NCBI GenBank assembly: GCA_943354165.1 | Contig: CALRBH010000009.1 | Coordinates: forward strand, 1-35,180 | Direction of reading: 5' to 3' | DNA length: 35,180 bases | DNA from: Candidatus Uhrbacteria bacterium RIFOXYB12_FULL_58_10 | Lineage (GTDB): Bacteria; Patescibacteriota; Patescibacteriia; UBA9934; GWF2-40-263 | In this document: piece by piece, positions 3,028-15,828 of the stretch | How positions within the stretch are numbered: position 1 is the first letter of the stretch | Layout of the letters: each line of letters starts with the position of its first letter | Notes under the pieces: model-generated | What the model saw: the letters and a program-made list of their open reading frames with translations, nothing else | Database searches by the model: none | Told to the model about the DNA's origin: nothing | Position numbers and translations under genes: made by a program

Positions 3028-4827
3028 ATGTCCGCTTACGACCACGAACACGAACAAGAGATTACGTACTTCGGTCGTACCAACTTCCGCAATCAACTGC
3101 GGAAATTTGGTATTAAACAGGATGACCGTCGTCGGCATACGTACGTGATCGGAAAAACCGGCATGGGAAAGACCGTGCTTCTGGAAAACATGATGCTGTC
3201 CGACATCTATGCGGGGCACGGCGCGTGTTATGTGGATCCGCACGGGGACACCGCCGAGCGCCTCATCGACTTCATTCCAAGTTGGAGAATAAATGACGTC
3301 GTATATTTCAACCCGGCTGATCTTGAATTTCCGATGGGGTTCAATATTCTTGAAGCCGTGGACGAACGTCACAAGCACCTGGTTGCGTCTGGGATGATGG
3401 GTGTCTTCAAGAAGATTTGGGTGGACCTGTGGAGTGCGCGCATGGAGTACATTTTGAACAACACTATTTTGGCGCTGCTCGACAATCCAGGATCCACGCT
3501 GCTCGGGATCAACCGCATGTTGTCGGATGCGGACTTCCGGAAAAACATCATTAGCAACGTGAAGGATCCGATCGTCAAGCAGTTTTGGCTGGTTGAGTTC
3601 GCGAGCTATAACGAAAAGTACGCGCAGGAGGCCGTGGCGCCGATCCAAAACAAGATCGGTCAGTTCTTGTCGGCGAGCATCATCCGCAACATCGTGGCGC
3701 AGGTGAACTCCACCTTCGATATCCGCAAGCTCATGGATGAAGGAAAGATTTTCATCGTGAACCTCTCCAAGGGCCGCATCGGGGAAGACAGCTCGCGTCT
3801 ACTTGGAGGGATGCTCATTACGAAAATTCAGCTTGCCGCCATGGAACGCGTGGATATGGCGGAAGCGGATCGCAAGGACTTTTACCTGTACGTGGACGAG
3901 TTCCAGAACTTCGCCGTCGATTCCTTTGCGGGCATTTTGTCCGAGGCACGCAAGTATCGACTTTGTCTGACGATCGCCCACCAGTACGTCGCACAGCTTT
4001 CCGACGAGGTGCGCGAGGCCGTGTTCGGAAACGTCGGGACGATCATTTCGTTCCGTGTGGGCGCACCGGACGGGGAATTCATGGAAAAGGAATTCACGCC
4101 ACGATTTCTCGTCGAAGACATCATTAACCTGCCGAAGTACAACGTGTACTTGAAATTACTCATCGATGGCGTTACGAGCCAGCCGTTCTCCGCGTTGACG
4201 CTGCCACCAATCGCCAAACGCACGCACAGCACGGATAAAGTAATCCGCGTCTGCCATGAGCGTTACAGCGTACCGCGCGCAAACATCGAAGATAAAGTGA
4301 TGAAGTGGAGCGGCATGGAGGGTGTGTCCGATGAACAGCTTTACGAAAAGGCGGCGGAACGGAAGTCGGCGGCCAAGGGATCCAAGAAGCCGCAACACAA
4401 GTACAACTGTACGCGCTGTACTAATGAAATCATTTTACCAGTTGAACTCGATAGGAGTCGTCCGATCTATTGCGAATCCTGCATTGAAATTGTTCGCGCG
4501 GAACGGAAGTCAGGGAAGGTGACGCCTGTTGTGCCACCGGTTGTTTCGTTGGTGCCAGCCGTATCGACTCCACCGATAAAACCGATGGTCGCAGCAATGC
4601 CCGCACTTAAACCAGCGATGCCAAAGCCGGCCATGAAGCCGACACCAAAACCGATGTCTCCAGCTAAACCCGTTCCTCCATCAGCACCTGCCGGCGAAGC
4701 GTTTGGCGGCCGGCCACGGATCGTGAAGGAAGAGACACCCAAGCACGTCGAGCATCTTGCCCCTGAATCCATCGCGCCGTCCGGTCCCATCGTTCTAAAG
4801 CCAAACGAGGAGATTCGATTCGATTAA
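3028..4827 (+). CDS. Type IV secretion coupling-protein-like (VirD4/TraG/TrwB) ATPase with C-terminal zinc ribbon and Pro-rich tail
   Basis: Walker A VIGKTGMGKT; YVDPHGDTAERLI; FYLYVDEFQNFA; CTRC...CESC; start chosen at 3028 after the upstream stop. Confidence 0.85.
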   Translation: MSAYDHEHEQEITYFGRTNFRNQLRKFGIKQDDRRRHTYVIGKTGMGKTVLLENMMLSDIYAGHGACYVDPHGDTAERLIDFIPSWRINDVVYFNPADLEFPMGFNILEAVDERHKHLVASGMMGVFKKIWVDLWSARMEYILNNTILALLDNPGSTLLGINRMLSDADFRKNIISNVKDPIVKQFWLVEFASYNEKYAQEAVAPIQNKIGQFLSASIIRNIVAQVNSTFDIRKLMDEGKIFIVNLSKGRIGEDSSRLLGGMLITKIQLAAMERVDMAEADRKDFYLYVDEFQNFAVDSFAGILSEARKYRLCLTIAHQYVAQLSDEVREAVFGNVGTIISFRVGAPDGEFMEKEFTPRFLVEDIINLPKYNVYLKLLIDGVTSQPFSALTLPPIAKRTHSTDKVIRVCHERYSVPRANIEDKVMKWSGMEGVSDEQLYEKAAERKSAAKGSKKPQHKYNCTRCTNEIILPVELDRSRPIYCESCIEIVRAERKSGKVTPVVPPVVSLVPAVSTPPIKPMVAAMPALKPAMPKPAMKPTPKPMSPAKPVPPSAPAGEAFGGRPRIVKEETPKHVEHLAPESIAPSGPIVLKPNEEIRFD

Positions 4828-11084: not shown

Positions 11085-11360
11085 ATGGCATATATGTCTC
11101 ATCTCCTCGAATTCTACGGCACCGAATGCCCGCATTGCGTGAACCTCATGCCGATCGTTGATAAGCTCATTGGCGAGGGAATTGCCATTAAGAAGATGGA
11201 AGTCTGGCACGATGAGAAGAACGCTGAGGTGATGGCCAAGCATGATAAAGGGCTCTGCGGCGGCGTGCCGTTTTTCATGAATACGGAATCCAAGCAGTTC
11301 ATTTGCGGGGAGACGGACGAGGAGACGCTTAGGAAGTGGGCGGCTGGCGACAAAGTTTAG
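11085..11360 (+). CDS. Thioredoxin/glutaredoxin-fold protein
   Basis: LLEFYGTECPHCVNLMPIVDKL...GGVPFFMN; CPHC redox motif and cis-Pro. Confidence 0.75.
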   Translation: MAYMSHLLEFYGTECPHCVNLMPIVDKLIGEGIAIKKMEVWHDEKNAEVMAKHDKGLCGGVPFFMNTESKQFICGETDEETLRKWAAGDKV

Positions 11361-11397
11361 TACGTAGAACGTAGTGCGTAGTACGTAGGAAAAGTAT

Positions 11398-12114
11398 ATG
11401 AATTTTACGAATGTCAAACCCTACGCACTACGCACTACGAACTACGCATTCGCGCTAGCAGCTTTGCTGCTCCTGGGCGTCGGCTGCGTGCCGCTTGATT
11501 TGGGCGGCAAGCCGGAGGAAGCTGCGCTTGATCTGGATGCAGAGGTCGGTATGGAACTGACGCTTCGTCATTCGGCGTTCGGCGTTGTTGGAACGATCGT
11601 TGAGGCTGTGGGGAAGGGCGCGGGCAGACGGACGGTTACGATCAATGCGGAAGATGAATCGCATACGTCCCTTTCCGATCTTATCGTCTTATCGCCCGCC
11701 CAGTTTGCCGAGCTGAAGGAAAACAAAACAACCCATATTTCTTTAGGGTTGTTTGATGACTCTATTGCGAAGGGCGTTGCCACCATTGCGTCGCTCAATG
11801 CGTTGCTCGCCAAGATTCCTGGAACGACTCCCGTGCAAAGCACGAATTTTGACGCGACGCTCATGACAGTCACGCTTCTGCCTGGGACGTTCAATCTTGT
11901 GATCGACGGGAAGGTCGCGACCGTGCAGACCATCGAAGCGGGGAACTGGTTTGGTCGCGTGAGCGTGCTCGACAATCCGGACTTTCCGCTCGTGCTGTCG
12001 GTTCGGCTCACTCCGGCCGCTTATGGCCCGGATGGAATCCTCTCTCCTACAAAAACTCTTTCTGAAGGATCATCGTACGAAGTTGTATCGCTTGACACCA
12101 CCCCCAACCCATGA
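11398..12114 (+). CDS. Putative lipoprotein
   Basis: 238 aa; signal peptide with LLLLGVGC lipobox-like site; no family recognised. Confidence 0.65.
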   Translation: MNFTNVKPYALRTTNYAFALAALLLLGVGCVPLDLGGKPEEAALDLDAEVGMELTLRHSAFGVVGTIVEAVGKGAGRRTVTINAEDESHTSLSDLIVLSPAQFAELKENKTTHISLGLFDDSIAKGVATIASLNALLAKIPGTTPVQSTNFDATLMTVTLLPGTFNLVIDGKVATVQTIEAGNWFGRVSVLDNPDFPLVLSVRLTPAAYGPDGILSPTKTLSEGSSYEVVSLDTTPNP

Positions 12115-12120
12115 TAGCTT
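12092..12120 (+). promoter_or_regulatory. Candidate promoter for the tracrRNA-like region
   Basis: TTGACA-N17-TAGCTT; good -35, weak -10; overlaps the 3' end of the preceding ORF. Confidence 0.35.
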
Positions 12121-12126
12121 CTTTTG

Positions 12127-12375
12127 TCACCCAATCCGCAAGGAGGTCGGTGATCAAGGCTCCAGAGGTCGACTCTGGGATTCGTGACAGTCTTGCCTTC
12201 GAGGAGGTGCCAGCGGATTCGTCCGATGGCTGACCTCATCTCCGGAGGAAAACTCAACTGCAAAGCAGTCGCCCTGAGCTAGTCGAAGGGCGTCTATGAG
12301 CAGGTAAAGAGCTGCGCTCTTTCACTAGTCTGGTCTTTTCATGGATGACACGTTTGGCATTACCGTGACCAAGGA
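12127..12375 (+). ncRNA. Putative tracrRNA: several hairpins followed by an anti-repeat
   Basis: Hairpins ccagag/ctctgg (12162-12178), actgc/gcagt (12257-12269), cgccct/agggcg (12270-12292), aaagagc/gctcttt (12306-12322); anti-repeat CTAGTCTGGTCTTTTCATGGATGAC (12325-12349) complementary to the 5' part of the CRISPR repeat. Confidence 0.55.
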
Positions 12376-12420
12376 GGCCTGGTAGCCAAGAGCAGGGATG
12401 CATCGGCACCCCCTAAACTC

Positions 12421-12480: not shown

Positions 12481-12698
12481 AGTCATCCAAAAAGGCCAGA
12501 ATAGGATGAGTGGTCACTCCGATATCCCCGACGCTTCCGTGCGGGAGTCATCCAAAAAGGCCAGAATAGGATGAGTGGTCACTCCGGACAGTATACACTC
12601 CTCGCGCATCGGCAAGTCATCCAAAAAGGCCAGAATAGGATGAGTGGTCACAAAAGCCAAGCTCCCGTGCAGAGGGCAGCAGTCATCCAAAAAGGCCA
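12481..12698 (+). CRISPR. Short CRISPR array: 3 full 37-bp repeats, a terminal 18-bp half repeat, 3 spacers
   Basis: AGTCATCCAAAAAGGCCAGAATAGGATGAGTGGTCAC at 12481-12517, 12546-12582, 12615-12651; truncated copy at 12681-12698; spacers 28, 32 and 29 nt. Confidence 0.93.
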
Positions 12699-12718
12699 AT
12701 TCCTTTTCCCTCTTCTTG

Positions 12719-12750
12719 AAACCCTGATTCGTCAGGGTTTTTTGCTTTTT
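12719..12750. terminator. Terminator between the array and convergent cas1
   Basis: aaaccctga-ttcg-tcagggttt followed by tttgcttttt; UUCG tetraloop. Confidence 0.85.
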
Positions 12751-13493
12751 GTATGTGTACCGAAATGTACGGTAGTCCTCCATGCAACATTGTTTATCAC
12801 TGCCTTTTTGTATTCGCGTATTTCAAAGATGCAAATATCTTTTAATGGTATTCGAGTTCCGTGATAGGAATATTCTTTCTCCCAACGTCTCAATAGAGCA
12901 TGAATGATGTTCTTGGTCGTAATAGAGTCAACCCGTTTCCTTCGAGAAAATAAAGGGATTATCGCCGCATCGACCATGGGTTGCCGGAACAGCTCCATCA
13001 AGTCGTAAACAAGCGCTTCTTTCTGGACGCGTGGAGTATGGAGGCACCCGATGCCAGGGTCTAGACCTGCATTCACAATAGATGTTCGAATGAGGTTCGT
13101 GAGCATAGTGTAGCCCACATTTAATGCTGCGTTCCATGGATCGGTTGCGTGGGGATATATTCGAGACCAACCCCGCAGTGCTTTTACAAGTATTGCAAAT
13201 GCTTTCCAGTAGCTTTTTGTCGCTTGAGCTTCAATCAGCATGAGTTCCTGGCGGGTAGAAACAGCCTGTATTCGACGGCTCGCTGAGAAGATGTCGTGTG
13301 TAGACCTTGAAAGAGTATGAGATATTTTAGGTGCAGACTGGAGTCGGTAAGGGAGGTAGAGCCGAATAAGCGCCGCCATGTTTTTGCATTTGGAACGGAT
13401 TACAGCCCTGGCTGTTGAGAGGGAGACGTCAGATTCCCAATACCGTGTCTGGGCAAAAGAAACCGGGACATTTTGGCTTGACATATTGCCCAT
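12732..13493 (-). CDS. cas1: Cas1 integrase, apparently lacking the N-terminal beta domain
   Basis: IEAQATKSYWKAF; DPWNAALNVGYTMLTNLIRTSIVNAGLDPGIGCLHTPRVQKEALVYDLMELFRQPMVD; in-frame TAG immediately upstream of the ORF. Confidence 0.85.
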   Translation of the reverse strand: MGNMSSQNVPVSFAQTRYWESDVSLSTARAVIRSKCKNMAALIRLYLPYRLQSAPKISHTLSRSTHDIFSASRRIQAVSTRQELMLIEAQATKSYWKAFAILVKALRGWSRIYPHATDPWNAALNVGYTMLTNLIRTSIVNAGLDPGIGCLHTPRVQKEALVYDLMELFRQPMVDAAIIPLFSRRKRVDSITTKNIIHALLRRWEKEYSYHGTRIPLKDICIFEIREYKKAVINNVAWRTTVHFGTHTKSKKP

Positions 13494-13506
13494 TTTACGC
13501 TATCTT
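13478..13506 (+). promoter_or_regulatory. Sigma70-type promoter of the effector operon
   Basis: TTGACA-N17-TATCTT, about 60 nt upstream of the ATG at 13565. Confidence 0.7.
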
Positions 13507-13564: not shown

Positions 13565-13843
13565 ATGGGTGAAAAGAAACTCAAGCGGCCGCGGCCGGCC
13601 AAGTGCCGGATACTGCCGCCAGATGCGCCGTCGCTTGTCCAAATGGTGACCGGGCTCACGAGGAAGATCTGCCGCAAGGCCGATCATATGAAGCAGGAGC
13701 CGCATGACGGACGGGCAAGGCGTGCCTATCAGATGCTGTTCGATCAGCGAGCAGCGGCCTTTGCCCGGTTGGGCGAAATGAAAGGCGAATGCGCGCAAAC
13801 CTTGGCCGATGAACTCGGCCTCAACACGGAGGTGTCACAATGA
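13565..13843 (+). CDS. Small (about 92 aa) basic helical protein, first gene of the effector operon
   Basis: GAGG SD upstream; ATGA overlap with the effector start codon; start at 13565 because the longer ORF overlaps the promoter. Confidence 0.65.
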   Translation: MGEKKLKRPRPAKCRILPPDAPSLVQMVTGLTRKICRKADHMKQEPHDGRARRAYQMLFDQRAAAFARLGEMKGECAQTLADELGLNTEVSQ

Positions 13844-15828
13844 GCTGGTACCAACAGCCCGCCTCCGGTGAGGAGCGGGGGTTCGTCGTTGTGGAAGCAA
13901 AGATCGGCGCCTCTCGCGCAGAAAAAGCTCTACCTGCGTGGAAGCAAAAGGTGTTTTCGCGGGTGAGTGTGCTTGTGAGCGTCGCGCTCGCGGCCACGAT
14001 GGAGGCACTCAAACGTGCCCTCACAGTGACCATGATCCGCGCAGACGAGTTGGAAACGGCTGTGCTCGCGGATCCTTGGGAGCCTAAAGGGCAATGGTTC
14101 GTGGATGCGGTCCGACTGCAATTCATGGTTGATGCGGAAGGTGCAGAGCGCATCCGTGTCTTACTCGCCCAGCCTGAGAAACCGTATGGGTACACGAATG
14201 CTTATCGCTTTGTGCGTATCTCAGATACGCCCACTTCGCATGGCAGATTCGTCGTCCAGGCGGAAATCGCCCGTGGTGAATGGAAGGATAGGAAGGGAAA
14301 GGACGGCGTCGTACGCGTTCACGGACTCTCTGTGATTGAGTCGACGACCGGCCTTCAGCGTATGTTGACCTCCTACCTGAAACCGATTGAACTTGAAGCT
14401 GTCCCACGCGCCCTGCGTGATGGGGTGGCTCAAGAGGCAGCCCAACAGATGACCAGTTATATCGGCCAGCTCGAGAGTGCTAAGGTGAAGGGCGACACGG
14501 CATATCCCACTGTCGAGGACCGCGAACCTGTGCGGCGCCGTACGGCATTTGAGACCGCCGTCGATCATCTACGGTGCGACGTGCGACCACTACAGTATGC
14601 GAAAGCTCGGGATCTCGATCCTGGCGCGTATGCTGAAGACGACAAGCGCGGCAACCGGCTCGTGGCAAACGATGAACGATGGCTTGCTGTCGTCCGTTCG
14701 CCGGACCCGCGTCCCATCCCCCTGTTCTTTGTGGACGGAGGACAGGTACGGCTCGACCGGCTGGAAACTGTGTTCGATGCAGGTGTCTCAAAAGTGAACC
14801 GGCACCGTGGCAGGCTCGAACCGTCTGAGCAGGTTCGCTCAAGTCGTCCACAGGCCGTTCAGAAGAAAGGGTTCACCTGTCTTCGATCCATATACGCACT
14901 TCTCCCCCTTCTCGATTCCGACGATGCAGACCTACGGGCGATTCTTACGGATCGCGATGCAGGTTTGAACGAAACGAGCGCAGGGAGATTAGCGAAACAT
15001 GAGCGTATGTCCGTTCCGCTGCAGGACGGTCCTGCAAAGGTCCGAAAACACGACGTCCGCGTGCCGCTCTCGTTTGATGCCGCACGATTCGGGAAGATCC
15101 TCAACCGGGGCGATCTTGAAATCGCCTGGGCGAAGGTCGTCTGCTCACAAGGTGAATGGTATTTGCAGCTGACCGTGCGTGTGCCGTTTGCGAAACCAGT
15201 CGGCGTGCGCAAGGTGCTCGGTGTAACCTTTGGCCTCGATGCGATCGCAAGTTGGTGCCTCACAGGCGAGGATGGGAAGGTCATCGAGACCGGCTCCATC
15301 GCGCCAAACCCCCAGATCGTGAGGTACCTCAATGACAAGCTGACGGTGGAGTGGGATCAGGCGAAGGAGCGATGGGTCGGTGGCACGCGGTTTGCGCCGG
15401 CACTCGAGCATATCACCCACCAGGTGAGCAACAAACTCGTAGAGCTTGCGAACTCATTTGGCGCGGTCCTTGCGGTCCATGATGTGCAGTGGGTTAAGAA
15501 GTCCGGGAAGGATGGAACACTCAACCGACTCTTCACAGCATGGAACTACGGCCAGCTGCGTCGGTACCTCGAGTACAAGTCGCCGCTCGCCGGACTCGGT
15601 GTCCCAGCCTGGTGCGGGGACTACTTGGTCAATATGACCTGCCCTGTGTGTGGAGCGATTCGTGGTAAGAACGAGACCCCAGAGAAAGCGAAGACCTGGC
15701 GGACAAACGGGACTCTCCATTGCCGCGCCTGCGGATACGAGGGGACCGTGACGGGAGCAGAAAACGCTCATCGCGTGGCTTCACATGGTCTCTCCGTGTG
15801 GAAGAAAGCGTGGGCAAAGGAAGCTTGA
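13840..15828 (+). CDS. Compact Cas12/TnpB-like type V effector with degenerate RuvC catalytic residues
   Basis: 662 aa; strong SD ggaggtg; RuvC-I-like VLGVTFGLDAIASWCLTGEDG; HQVSNKLVELANSFGAVLAVHDVQW; NYGQLRRYLEYKSPLAGLGV; zinc ribbon CPVCG...CRACG; TVTGAENAHRVASHGL; adjacent CRISPR array and cas1. Confidence 0.85.
   Translation: MSWYQQPASGEERGFVVVEAKIGASRAEKALPAWKQKVFSRVSVLVSVALAATMEALKRALTVTMIRADELETAVLADPWEPKGQWFVDAVRLQFMVDAEGAERIRVLLAQPEKPYGYTNAYRFVRISDTPTSHGRFVVQAEIARGEWKDRKGKDGVVRVHGLSVIESTTGLQRMLTSYLKPIELEAVPRALRDGVAQEAAQQMTSYIGQLESAKVKGDTAYPTVEDREPVRRRTAFETAVDHLRCDVRPLQYAKARDLDPGAYAEDDKRGNRLVANDERWLAVVRSPDPRPIPLFFVDGGQVRLDRLETVFDAGVSKVNRHRGRLEPSEQVRSSRPQAVQKKGFTCLRSIYALLPLLDSDDADLRAILTDRDAGLNETSAGRLAKHERMSVPLQDGPAKVRKHDVRVPLSFDAARFGKILNRGDLEIAWAKVVCSQGEWYLQLTVRVPFAKPVGVRKVLGVTFGLDAIASWCLTGEDGKVIETGSIAPNPQIVRYLNDKLTVEWDQAKERWVGGTRFAPALEHITHQVSNKLVELANSFGAVLAVHDVQWVKKSGKDGTLNRLFTAWNYGQLRRYLEYKSPLAGLGVPAWCGDYLVNMTCPVCGAIRGKNETPEKAKTWRTNGTLHCRACGYEGTVTGAENAHRVASHGLSVWKKAWAKEA

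Follow-up and report, generated by a model that had tools for sequence, protein, structure and literature searches.

Bacteria of the group to which the present host belongs rarely carry CRISPR. Type V-C loci encode a short Cas1 without Cas2, and their effector, Cas12c, is a protein of about 1,200 aa that keeps the RuvC triad and has short tracr docks; we know of no S15 protein reported for them. Several inactivated type V subtypes are already known, namely V-C, V-M, V-K, V-O and V-P, the last two from the 2025 classification, in which they are predicted to act by silencing (PMC12669027). Cas12c binds DNA without cutting it, and its tracrRNA makes several contacts with the repeat, pseudoknots among them (PMC9522604). 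Cas12m of type V-M is compact (~600 aa), has an altered RuvC domain and silences by DNA binding (PMC10442227). The type V-K CAST complex contains uS15, which contacts the tracrRNA (PMC10761935). In a CPR CasY locus, self-matching spacers occur together with a fragmented effector (PMC6509639). The locus described here combines a candidate tracrRNA and a short CRISPR array with genes for a short Cas1, a paralogue of ribosomal protein S15 and a type V effector that is not expected to cut DNA through RuvC.

The locus and its relatives

The window, by which we mean the whole stretch of 35,180 nt that was analysed, is part of contig C9 of an 852-kb Patescibacteria genome (G000) that is 98% complete. 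Its plus strand encodes a type V effector of 662 aa (13840..15828) related to Cas12f and TnpB, as recognized by PADLOC, alignments, a structural model and a fold search. The protein matched the PADLOC Cas12f model with an E-value of 1e-39, and AsCas12f provided the top Foldseek hits. The best member of the effector family reached E=2e-213 against the same PADLOC model, which seems to have been built around one relative, with at least one member already inside it. A promoter-like site (13478..13506, plus strand; 10 of 12 positions matched) precedes the operon of the S15-like and effector genes. Among the window's open reading frames, part of which were screened, the neighbouring proteins were Cas1, the S15-like protein and housekeeping proteins. 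We also noted an inverted repeat of CTACGCACTACG-type units at 11340-11462, just upstream of and overlapping the open reading frame at 11398.

Five relatives of the effector were found. With the window they make six members from six genera and several Patescibacteria classes, with open reading frames throughout and 27-58% identity to the window effector. The closest, G408 (58% identity), belongs to the same family as the window host, and G479 and G724 belong to the same class; G355 is a Candidatus Doudnabacteria and G082 a Candidatus Andersenbacteria genome. The effector is rare: a single-sequence search across the phylum matched 3 of the 380 genomes sampled, the window's own included, and 5 of 381 genomes gave a match class-wide, one of them (G646) being a TnpB-like outgroup. 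We rejected the G646 protein as a member, as it is TnpB-like with an intact RuvC motif and shows no sign of the system. A search of viral contigs returned no effector relative, and phage records gave distant TnpB-like matches only.

Alignment with active Cas12f placed T463, H547 and A640 of the window effector at the D/E/D positions of RuvC-I, RuvC-II and RuvC-III. The RuvC-I Asp was absent from all six members (T, S, S, T, A and H), as was the RuvC-III Asp, while the RuvC-II Glu was kept in three. Because every member lacks both Asp residues, DNA cleavage through RuvC is not expected anywhere in the clade, as judged from the aligned sequences. The G082 effector (L007:8675-10480) was also seen to be without the TNB zinc-finger region entirely.

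The CRISPR array and the candidate tracrRNA

Read from its repeats, the CRISPR array (12482..12698, plus strand) holds three spacers between full repeats at 12482-12517, 12547-12582 and 12616-12651 and a truncated terminal repeat at 12682-12698. The repeat sequence is GTCATCCAAAAAGGCCAGAATAGGATGAGTGGTCAC. A terminator-like hairpin (12718..12741, plus strand) lies past the truncated repeat. Arrays of this family are short, with 2-4 spacers. The last repeat of each array retains just the 5' 13-19 nt, the part that pairs with the anti-repeat (window 12682-12698; L007:7731-7749; L014 at about 396 and 4079), with a terminator-like hairpin or a T-rich stretch behind it. In G355 a generic repeat search found no array, and only inspection by eye showed the diverged end of an array where the contig starts.

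Upstream of the array, the plus strand carries the elements of a candidate tracrRNA. A candidate promoter, TTGACA-17 nt-TAGCTT, was read directly at 12092..12120; it was absent from the list of a generic promoter scan because its -10 element is weak. CTTGACA occurs at the equivalent spot before the leader RNA in four leaders (window, G408, G479 and G724). A structured 5' body is predicted by folding from about 12122 to 12324 and contains the block TTCGAGGAGGT...CCTCATCTCCGG.GGAAAACTC, common to the window and G408; the longer body is shared with G408 alone. The body ends in a hairpin of 7 bp with a 3-nt loop (12306..12322), which directly precedes the anti-repeat (12325..12349) and has counterparts at this position in G408, G479 and G082.

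The anti-repeat, CTAGTCTGGTCTTTTCATGGATGAC, pairs with nucleotides 1-23 of the repeat through 8 bp, a 2-nt bulge, 11 bp including one G-U, one mismatch and 3 bp. Its pairing score was 22 of 22 counted positions, and the runner-up site on either strand of the 35-kb window scored 17. The predicted duplex with the repeat had an energy of -31.2 kcal/mol; shuffled anti-repeats averaged -13.2 (sd 3.2), and none of 5000 was as strong. The anti-repeat claimed by the initial annotation was thus exact letter for letter, and the helix it described gives the 22 pairs. The three hairpins that it placed before the anti-repeat were also located: actgc-aaa-gcagt at 12257-12269, cgccct...agggcg at 12270-12292 and aaagagc-tgc-gctcttt at 12306-12322. 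Its entry covered 12257-12375; one correction concerns the start, as the RNA probably begins well upstream of 12257, near 12122-12127.

A further hairpin is predicted 3' of the anti-repeat (12354..12389), with GTGACCA (12365-12371) in its loop. The proposed complementarity of this 7-mer to the 3' end of the repeat is exact, but it is weak as evidence, since this 7-mer recurs twice more on the plus strand of the window. The homologous loop of G408, TTGACCCTCC, is able to pair with the 3' end of the G408 repeat. A second contact between this loop and the repeat, in the manner of a pseudoknot, is therefore offered as a tentative suggestion, not as an established feature. A search of Rfam gave no family matching the leader in the window or its relatives.

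Covariation of the leader element with the repeats

We compared the leaders of the window, G408, G479 and G082, the full set of distinct leaders whose arrays could be read. Each contained a perfect hairpin of 7 bp with a 3-nt loop, followed immediately by an anti-repeat of 22-27 nt. The hairpins are AAAGAGC-TGC-GCTCTTT in the window, GAAGAGC-CGC-GCTCTTC in G408, CCACGAC-CGA-GTCGTGG in G479 and CAGATAC-TCA-GTATCTG in G082. All 28 cells of this comparison were paired (100%), with two-sided, compensatory changes in six of the seven pairs, and pairing was far worse in slid or shuffled controls. The letters of both hairpin and anti-repeat thus vary from locus to locus with the pairing preserved.

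The anti-repeats follow their own repeats. Duplex energies of own pairs were -31.2 kcal/mol in the window, -19.5 in G408 (-22.0 with its other array), -32.2 in G479 and -26.5 in G082, and in the matrix of own and cross energies the best-pairing repeat for every anti-repeat was one from its own locus. Energies computed on whole leaders parted poorly from shuffles in the GC-rich G479 and in G082, and the comparison was therefore repeated with the part of the leader that follows the hairpin and with strict prefixes. Strict complements of the repeat 5' end ran to 8, 8, 5 and 9 nt in the own leaders of the window, G408, G479 and G082, respectively. The G408 duplex was modest (152 of 5000 shuffles were as strong), and pairing was looser in G479, with its 5-nt prefix and a whole-leader duplex no better than shuffles. 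The initial annotation had named a lack of covariation in related loci among the results that would refute its tracrRNA; G408, G479 and G082 have the hairpin and the anti-repeat in the equivalent position, and their anti-repeats, though different in sequence, match their own repeats. This supports its candidate tracrRNA, with an anti-repeat that pairs beyond chance and covaries with the repeat. Both an anti-repeat encoded in the locus and a structured element with compensatory changes were found, and on these grounds of sequence the leader element is best described as a predicted tracrRNA.

In G408 two near-identical copies of the leader with its tracr (L014:1-131 and 3697-3827) each precede a different array and flank the cas1-effector genes. 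The effector contig of G479 opens with another tracr copy, in reverse complement. G479, too, holds its tracr and array twice, and its contigs break within the duplicated RNA (L018:1-130 and L026:1-63).

The S15 paralogue and Cas1

A paralogue of ribosomal protein S15 (92 aa; 13565..13843, plus strand) was recognized by profile, Pfam and structural model, and its stop codon overlaps the effector start (ATGA), which couples the two genes in translation. Genes of this kind, of about 92-102 codons, lie upstream of the effector in all six members, five of which matched Pfam Ribosomal_S15 (best E 4.9e-7). A joint profile of the six searched against the PDB had a best E-value of 3.3e-11, and all listed hits were S15. 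The AlphaFold model (pLDDT 80) resembled S15 structures with a TM score of about 0.7, including the S15 chains 8rdu_B and 8bd5_X from type V-K complexes; Foldseek E-values were weak for this small, helical protein. Sequence and fold thus place the protein in the S15 family. The canonical rpsO was located elsewhere in both genomes checked (G000 and G082); in G000 its product and the paralogue are 23% identical. By analogy with V-K, a dedicated S15-like subunit holding the tracrRNA is a natural inference.

Cas1 is encoded on the minus strand (12732..13493; Pfam Cas_Cas1, E=6.5e-40). At 253 aa it is short, beginning near position 77 of the Cas_Cas1 profile, and it is short wherever found (242-255 aa). 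E88, H152 and E167 were invariant in the three sequences aligned. No cas2 was seen nearby in the locus, and no cas1 was detected in G724; the S15-like and Cas1 genes are kept in nearly all members.

Spacer matches on the host chromosome

Self-matches were sought in two genomes, over 821 kb of G000 and 867 kb of G082. All seven testable spacers, from these two genomes of two classes, matched their own chromosome with 0-6 mismatches. In the control, 120 random 31-mers from one genome matched the other with 8-11 mismatches, never below 8. Spacer 1 (12518..12546) matched at 29 of 29 positions in a DUF2207 membrane-protein gene (G000:C14:8707; L052:8707). Spacer 2 (12583..12615) matched at 27 of 33 positions at about G000:C7:22186 (L071:2186), where the target spans the promoter region of a tRNA-Ser gene together with its 5' end. 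Spacer 3 (12652..12681) matched at 29 of 29 positions at about G000:C4:43821 (L065:3821), inside a gene that was read as mreD from its neighbours alone and had no Pfam hit. All three are read on the plus strand. Spacers 1 and 3 are thus each matched perfectly over 29 nt at a site outside the array, and being exact they are taken to be recent.

The four G082 spacers matched their genome with 1-4 mismatches, at targets in L108, L135, L132 and L085. The genes hit are those of an epimerase and a glycosyltransferase besides dnaK and enolase. Four of the seven targets are housekeeping in nature (dnaK, enolase, mreD and the tRNA promoter), and most matches lie within genes, on either strand. The internal mismatches at dnaK and enolase (L135:19024 and L085:3597) are synonymous in five of five cases. 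The spacers therefore derive from DNA of the host or its close kin, the sequences having drifted since. A T stands directly ahead of the match for all four G082 spacers, which is compatible with a PAM; no common base precedes the matches of the window's three spacers. In the literature open to search we found no description of an S15 gene in a CRISPR operon or of arrays whose spacers are all self-matching.

Proposed mechanism and alternative explanations

The inactive effector, the S15 paralogue and the self-matching spacers, none of which the initial annotation had noticed, change the likely purpose of the tracrRNA. We think it quite likely that a tracrRNA is encoded on the plus strand between about 12122 and 12390, and that a RuvC-dead type V ribonucleoprotein (RNP) uses it to bind spacer-matching DNA without cutting, mainly that of the host. 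The promoter at 12092 would drive the tracrRNA, whose 3' anti-repeat would pair with two thirds of each repeat, counted from the repeat's 5' end. The host RNase III, for which a gene is present in the genome, would probably trim the long duplex so formed. The S15-like protein would keep the tracrRNA folded, the part that ribosomal S15 plays with Cas12k, and the RNP would then bind DNA matching the spacer and block it without cleavage, chiefly on the host's own chromosome.

What such binding would serve can be read in two ways. It might be defence by DNA-binding silencing, like that of V-C and V-M, with the self spacers as harmless by-products of an indiscriminate Cas1, tolerated because the effector does not cut; we find this plausible, at somewhat less than an even chance. 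The targets are scattered in core genes on both strands, and the five synonymous mismatches look as if old copies from host or kin had been taken up and the match not maintained. CPR bacteria are moreover thought to be without RecBCD, and a fragmented CasY has been reported alongside self spacers (PMC6509639). However, an array of self spacers alone would protect against nothing. None of the seven looks foreign, and a search of viral contigs with two spacer cores gave no match. The RNP might equally be an endogenous gene regulator, its array a small guide set that lowers host gene expression, and we give this the same tentative weight. The seven self-matches in two classes speak for it, as do the uniform inactivity of the effector family, the retention of a dedicated S15 cofactor and the target that spans the tRNA-Ser promoter. 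On the other hand, the two genomes differ in the genes hit, and mismatches pile up, so that the match does not appear strictly maintained. Targets that are mostly mid-gene, in housekeeping genes on either strand, are also unlike designed promoter regulation. The CasY precedent favours tolerance, whereas an effector inactive in every member and a cofactor of its own point to a positive role, and we regard purposeful host regulation and a silencing defence filled with self spacers as about equally likely. A bolder proposal, in which the system has given up defence and is programmed against its own chromosome, Cas1 capturing host DNA and the dead Cas12 with tracrRNA and a purpose-made S15 paralogue binding and tuning those genes as an acquired, heritable RNA-guided regulator, seems to us rather doubtful.

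Two further explanations were weighed. The locus might be decaying, its effector, short Cas1 and short arrays being functionless remnants. The lost catalytic residues, the short Cas1, the arrays of 2-4 spacers and the G082 effector without its zinc-finger part could all be read in this way. Yet the reading frames remain open across six genera at 27-58% identity to the window, the S15-like and Cas1 genes are nearly always kept, the Cas1 active-site residues are invariant and two spacers are exact and recent, which makes decay very improbable. The anti-repeat could instead be an inverted degenerate repeat, either an element of the array or leader or a premature hairpin, rather than a trans-acting RNA, and it does sit in the leader. 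But several loci have it in this position after a covarying hairpin and preserve the promoter element and the shared body, and the whole unit is duplicated along with an array in G479 and G408; we consider this explanation very improbable.

Comparison with known type V systems

A tracrRNA-guided, RuvC-dead complex directed mainly at host DNA, as preferred here, shares features with several subtypes. By sequence and fold the closest is V-F (Cas12f/Cas14), with which the effector shares RuvC-TNB homology and which also uses a tracrRNA. Unlike V-F, the present system lacks the active RuvC D/E/D residues, encodes an S15 paralogue and has a short Cas1, with no cas2 seen. It resembles V-C in its short Cas1 with no cas2 seen, in pairing a Cas12 with a tracrRNA and in binding without cutting, the latter two being predictions here; we rejected V-C membership, as the effector profile had no Cas12c match in the PDB even at E 10. 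With V-M it shares a compact effector and an altered RuvC. In contrast, a predicted tracrRNA is present here, while in the structure paper on V-M the guide is a crRNA, the triad is HDD and tracrRNA goes unmentioned (PMC10442227). Together with the lack of a Cas12m sequence match in the PDB, this led us to reject V-M membership. V-O and V-P are alike in their inactivation; compared by description only, one of them may be the same as the present system, and the PDB chains named Cas12o1 (8xca) and Cas12p (9jfs) had no sequence match to the effector profile.

Arrays in which seven of seven spacers match the host, in two distant lineages, are far from the expected look of a defence system, and they make the question of CRISPR as regulation directly testable. 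If the self-programmed reading is true, no earlier CRISPR operon would be known to carry a gene for an S15 subunit of its own. Like V-K, the system has a RuvC-inactive Cas12 and a predicted tracrRNA, and the V-K complex holds a ribosomal S15 that contacts the tracrRNA (PMC10761935, PMC11127173). V-K membership was rejected, the effector profile having no Cas12k sequence match in the PDB. Unlike V-K, the locus has a Cas1 and no Tns/TniQ protein (tnsB, tnsC or tniQ) among the screened neighbours, and its S15 is a dedicated gene of the operon, whereas that of V-K is a housekeeping protein. The occurrence of an operon-encoded S15 here and a housekeeping S15 with Cas12k suggests that S15 may be a more general tracrRNA chaperone of inactive Cas12 proteins.
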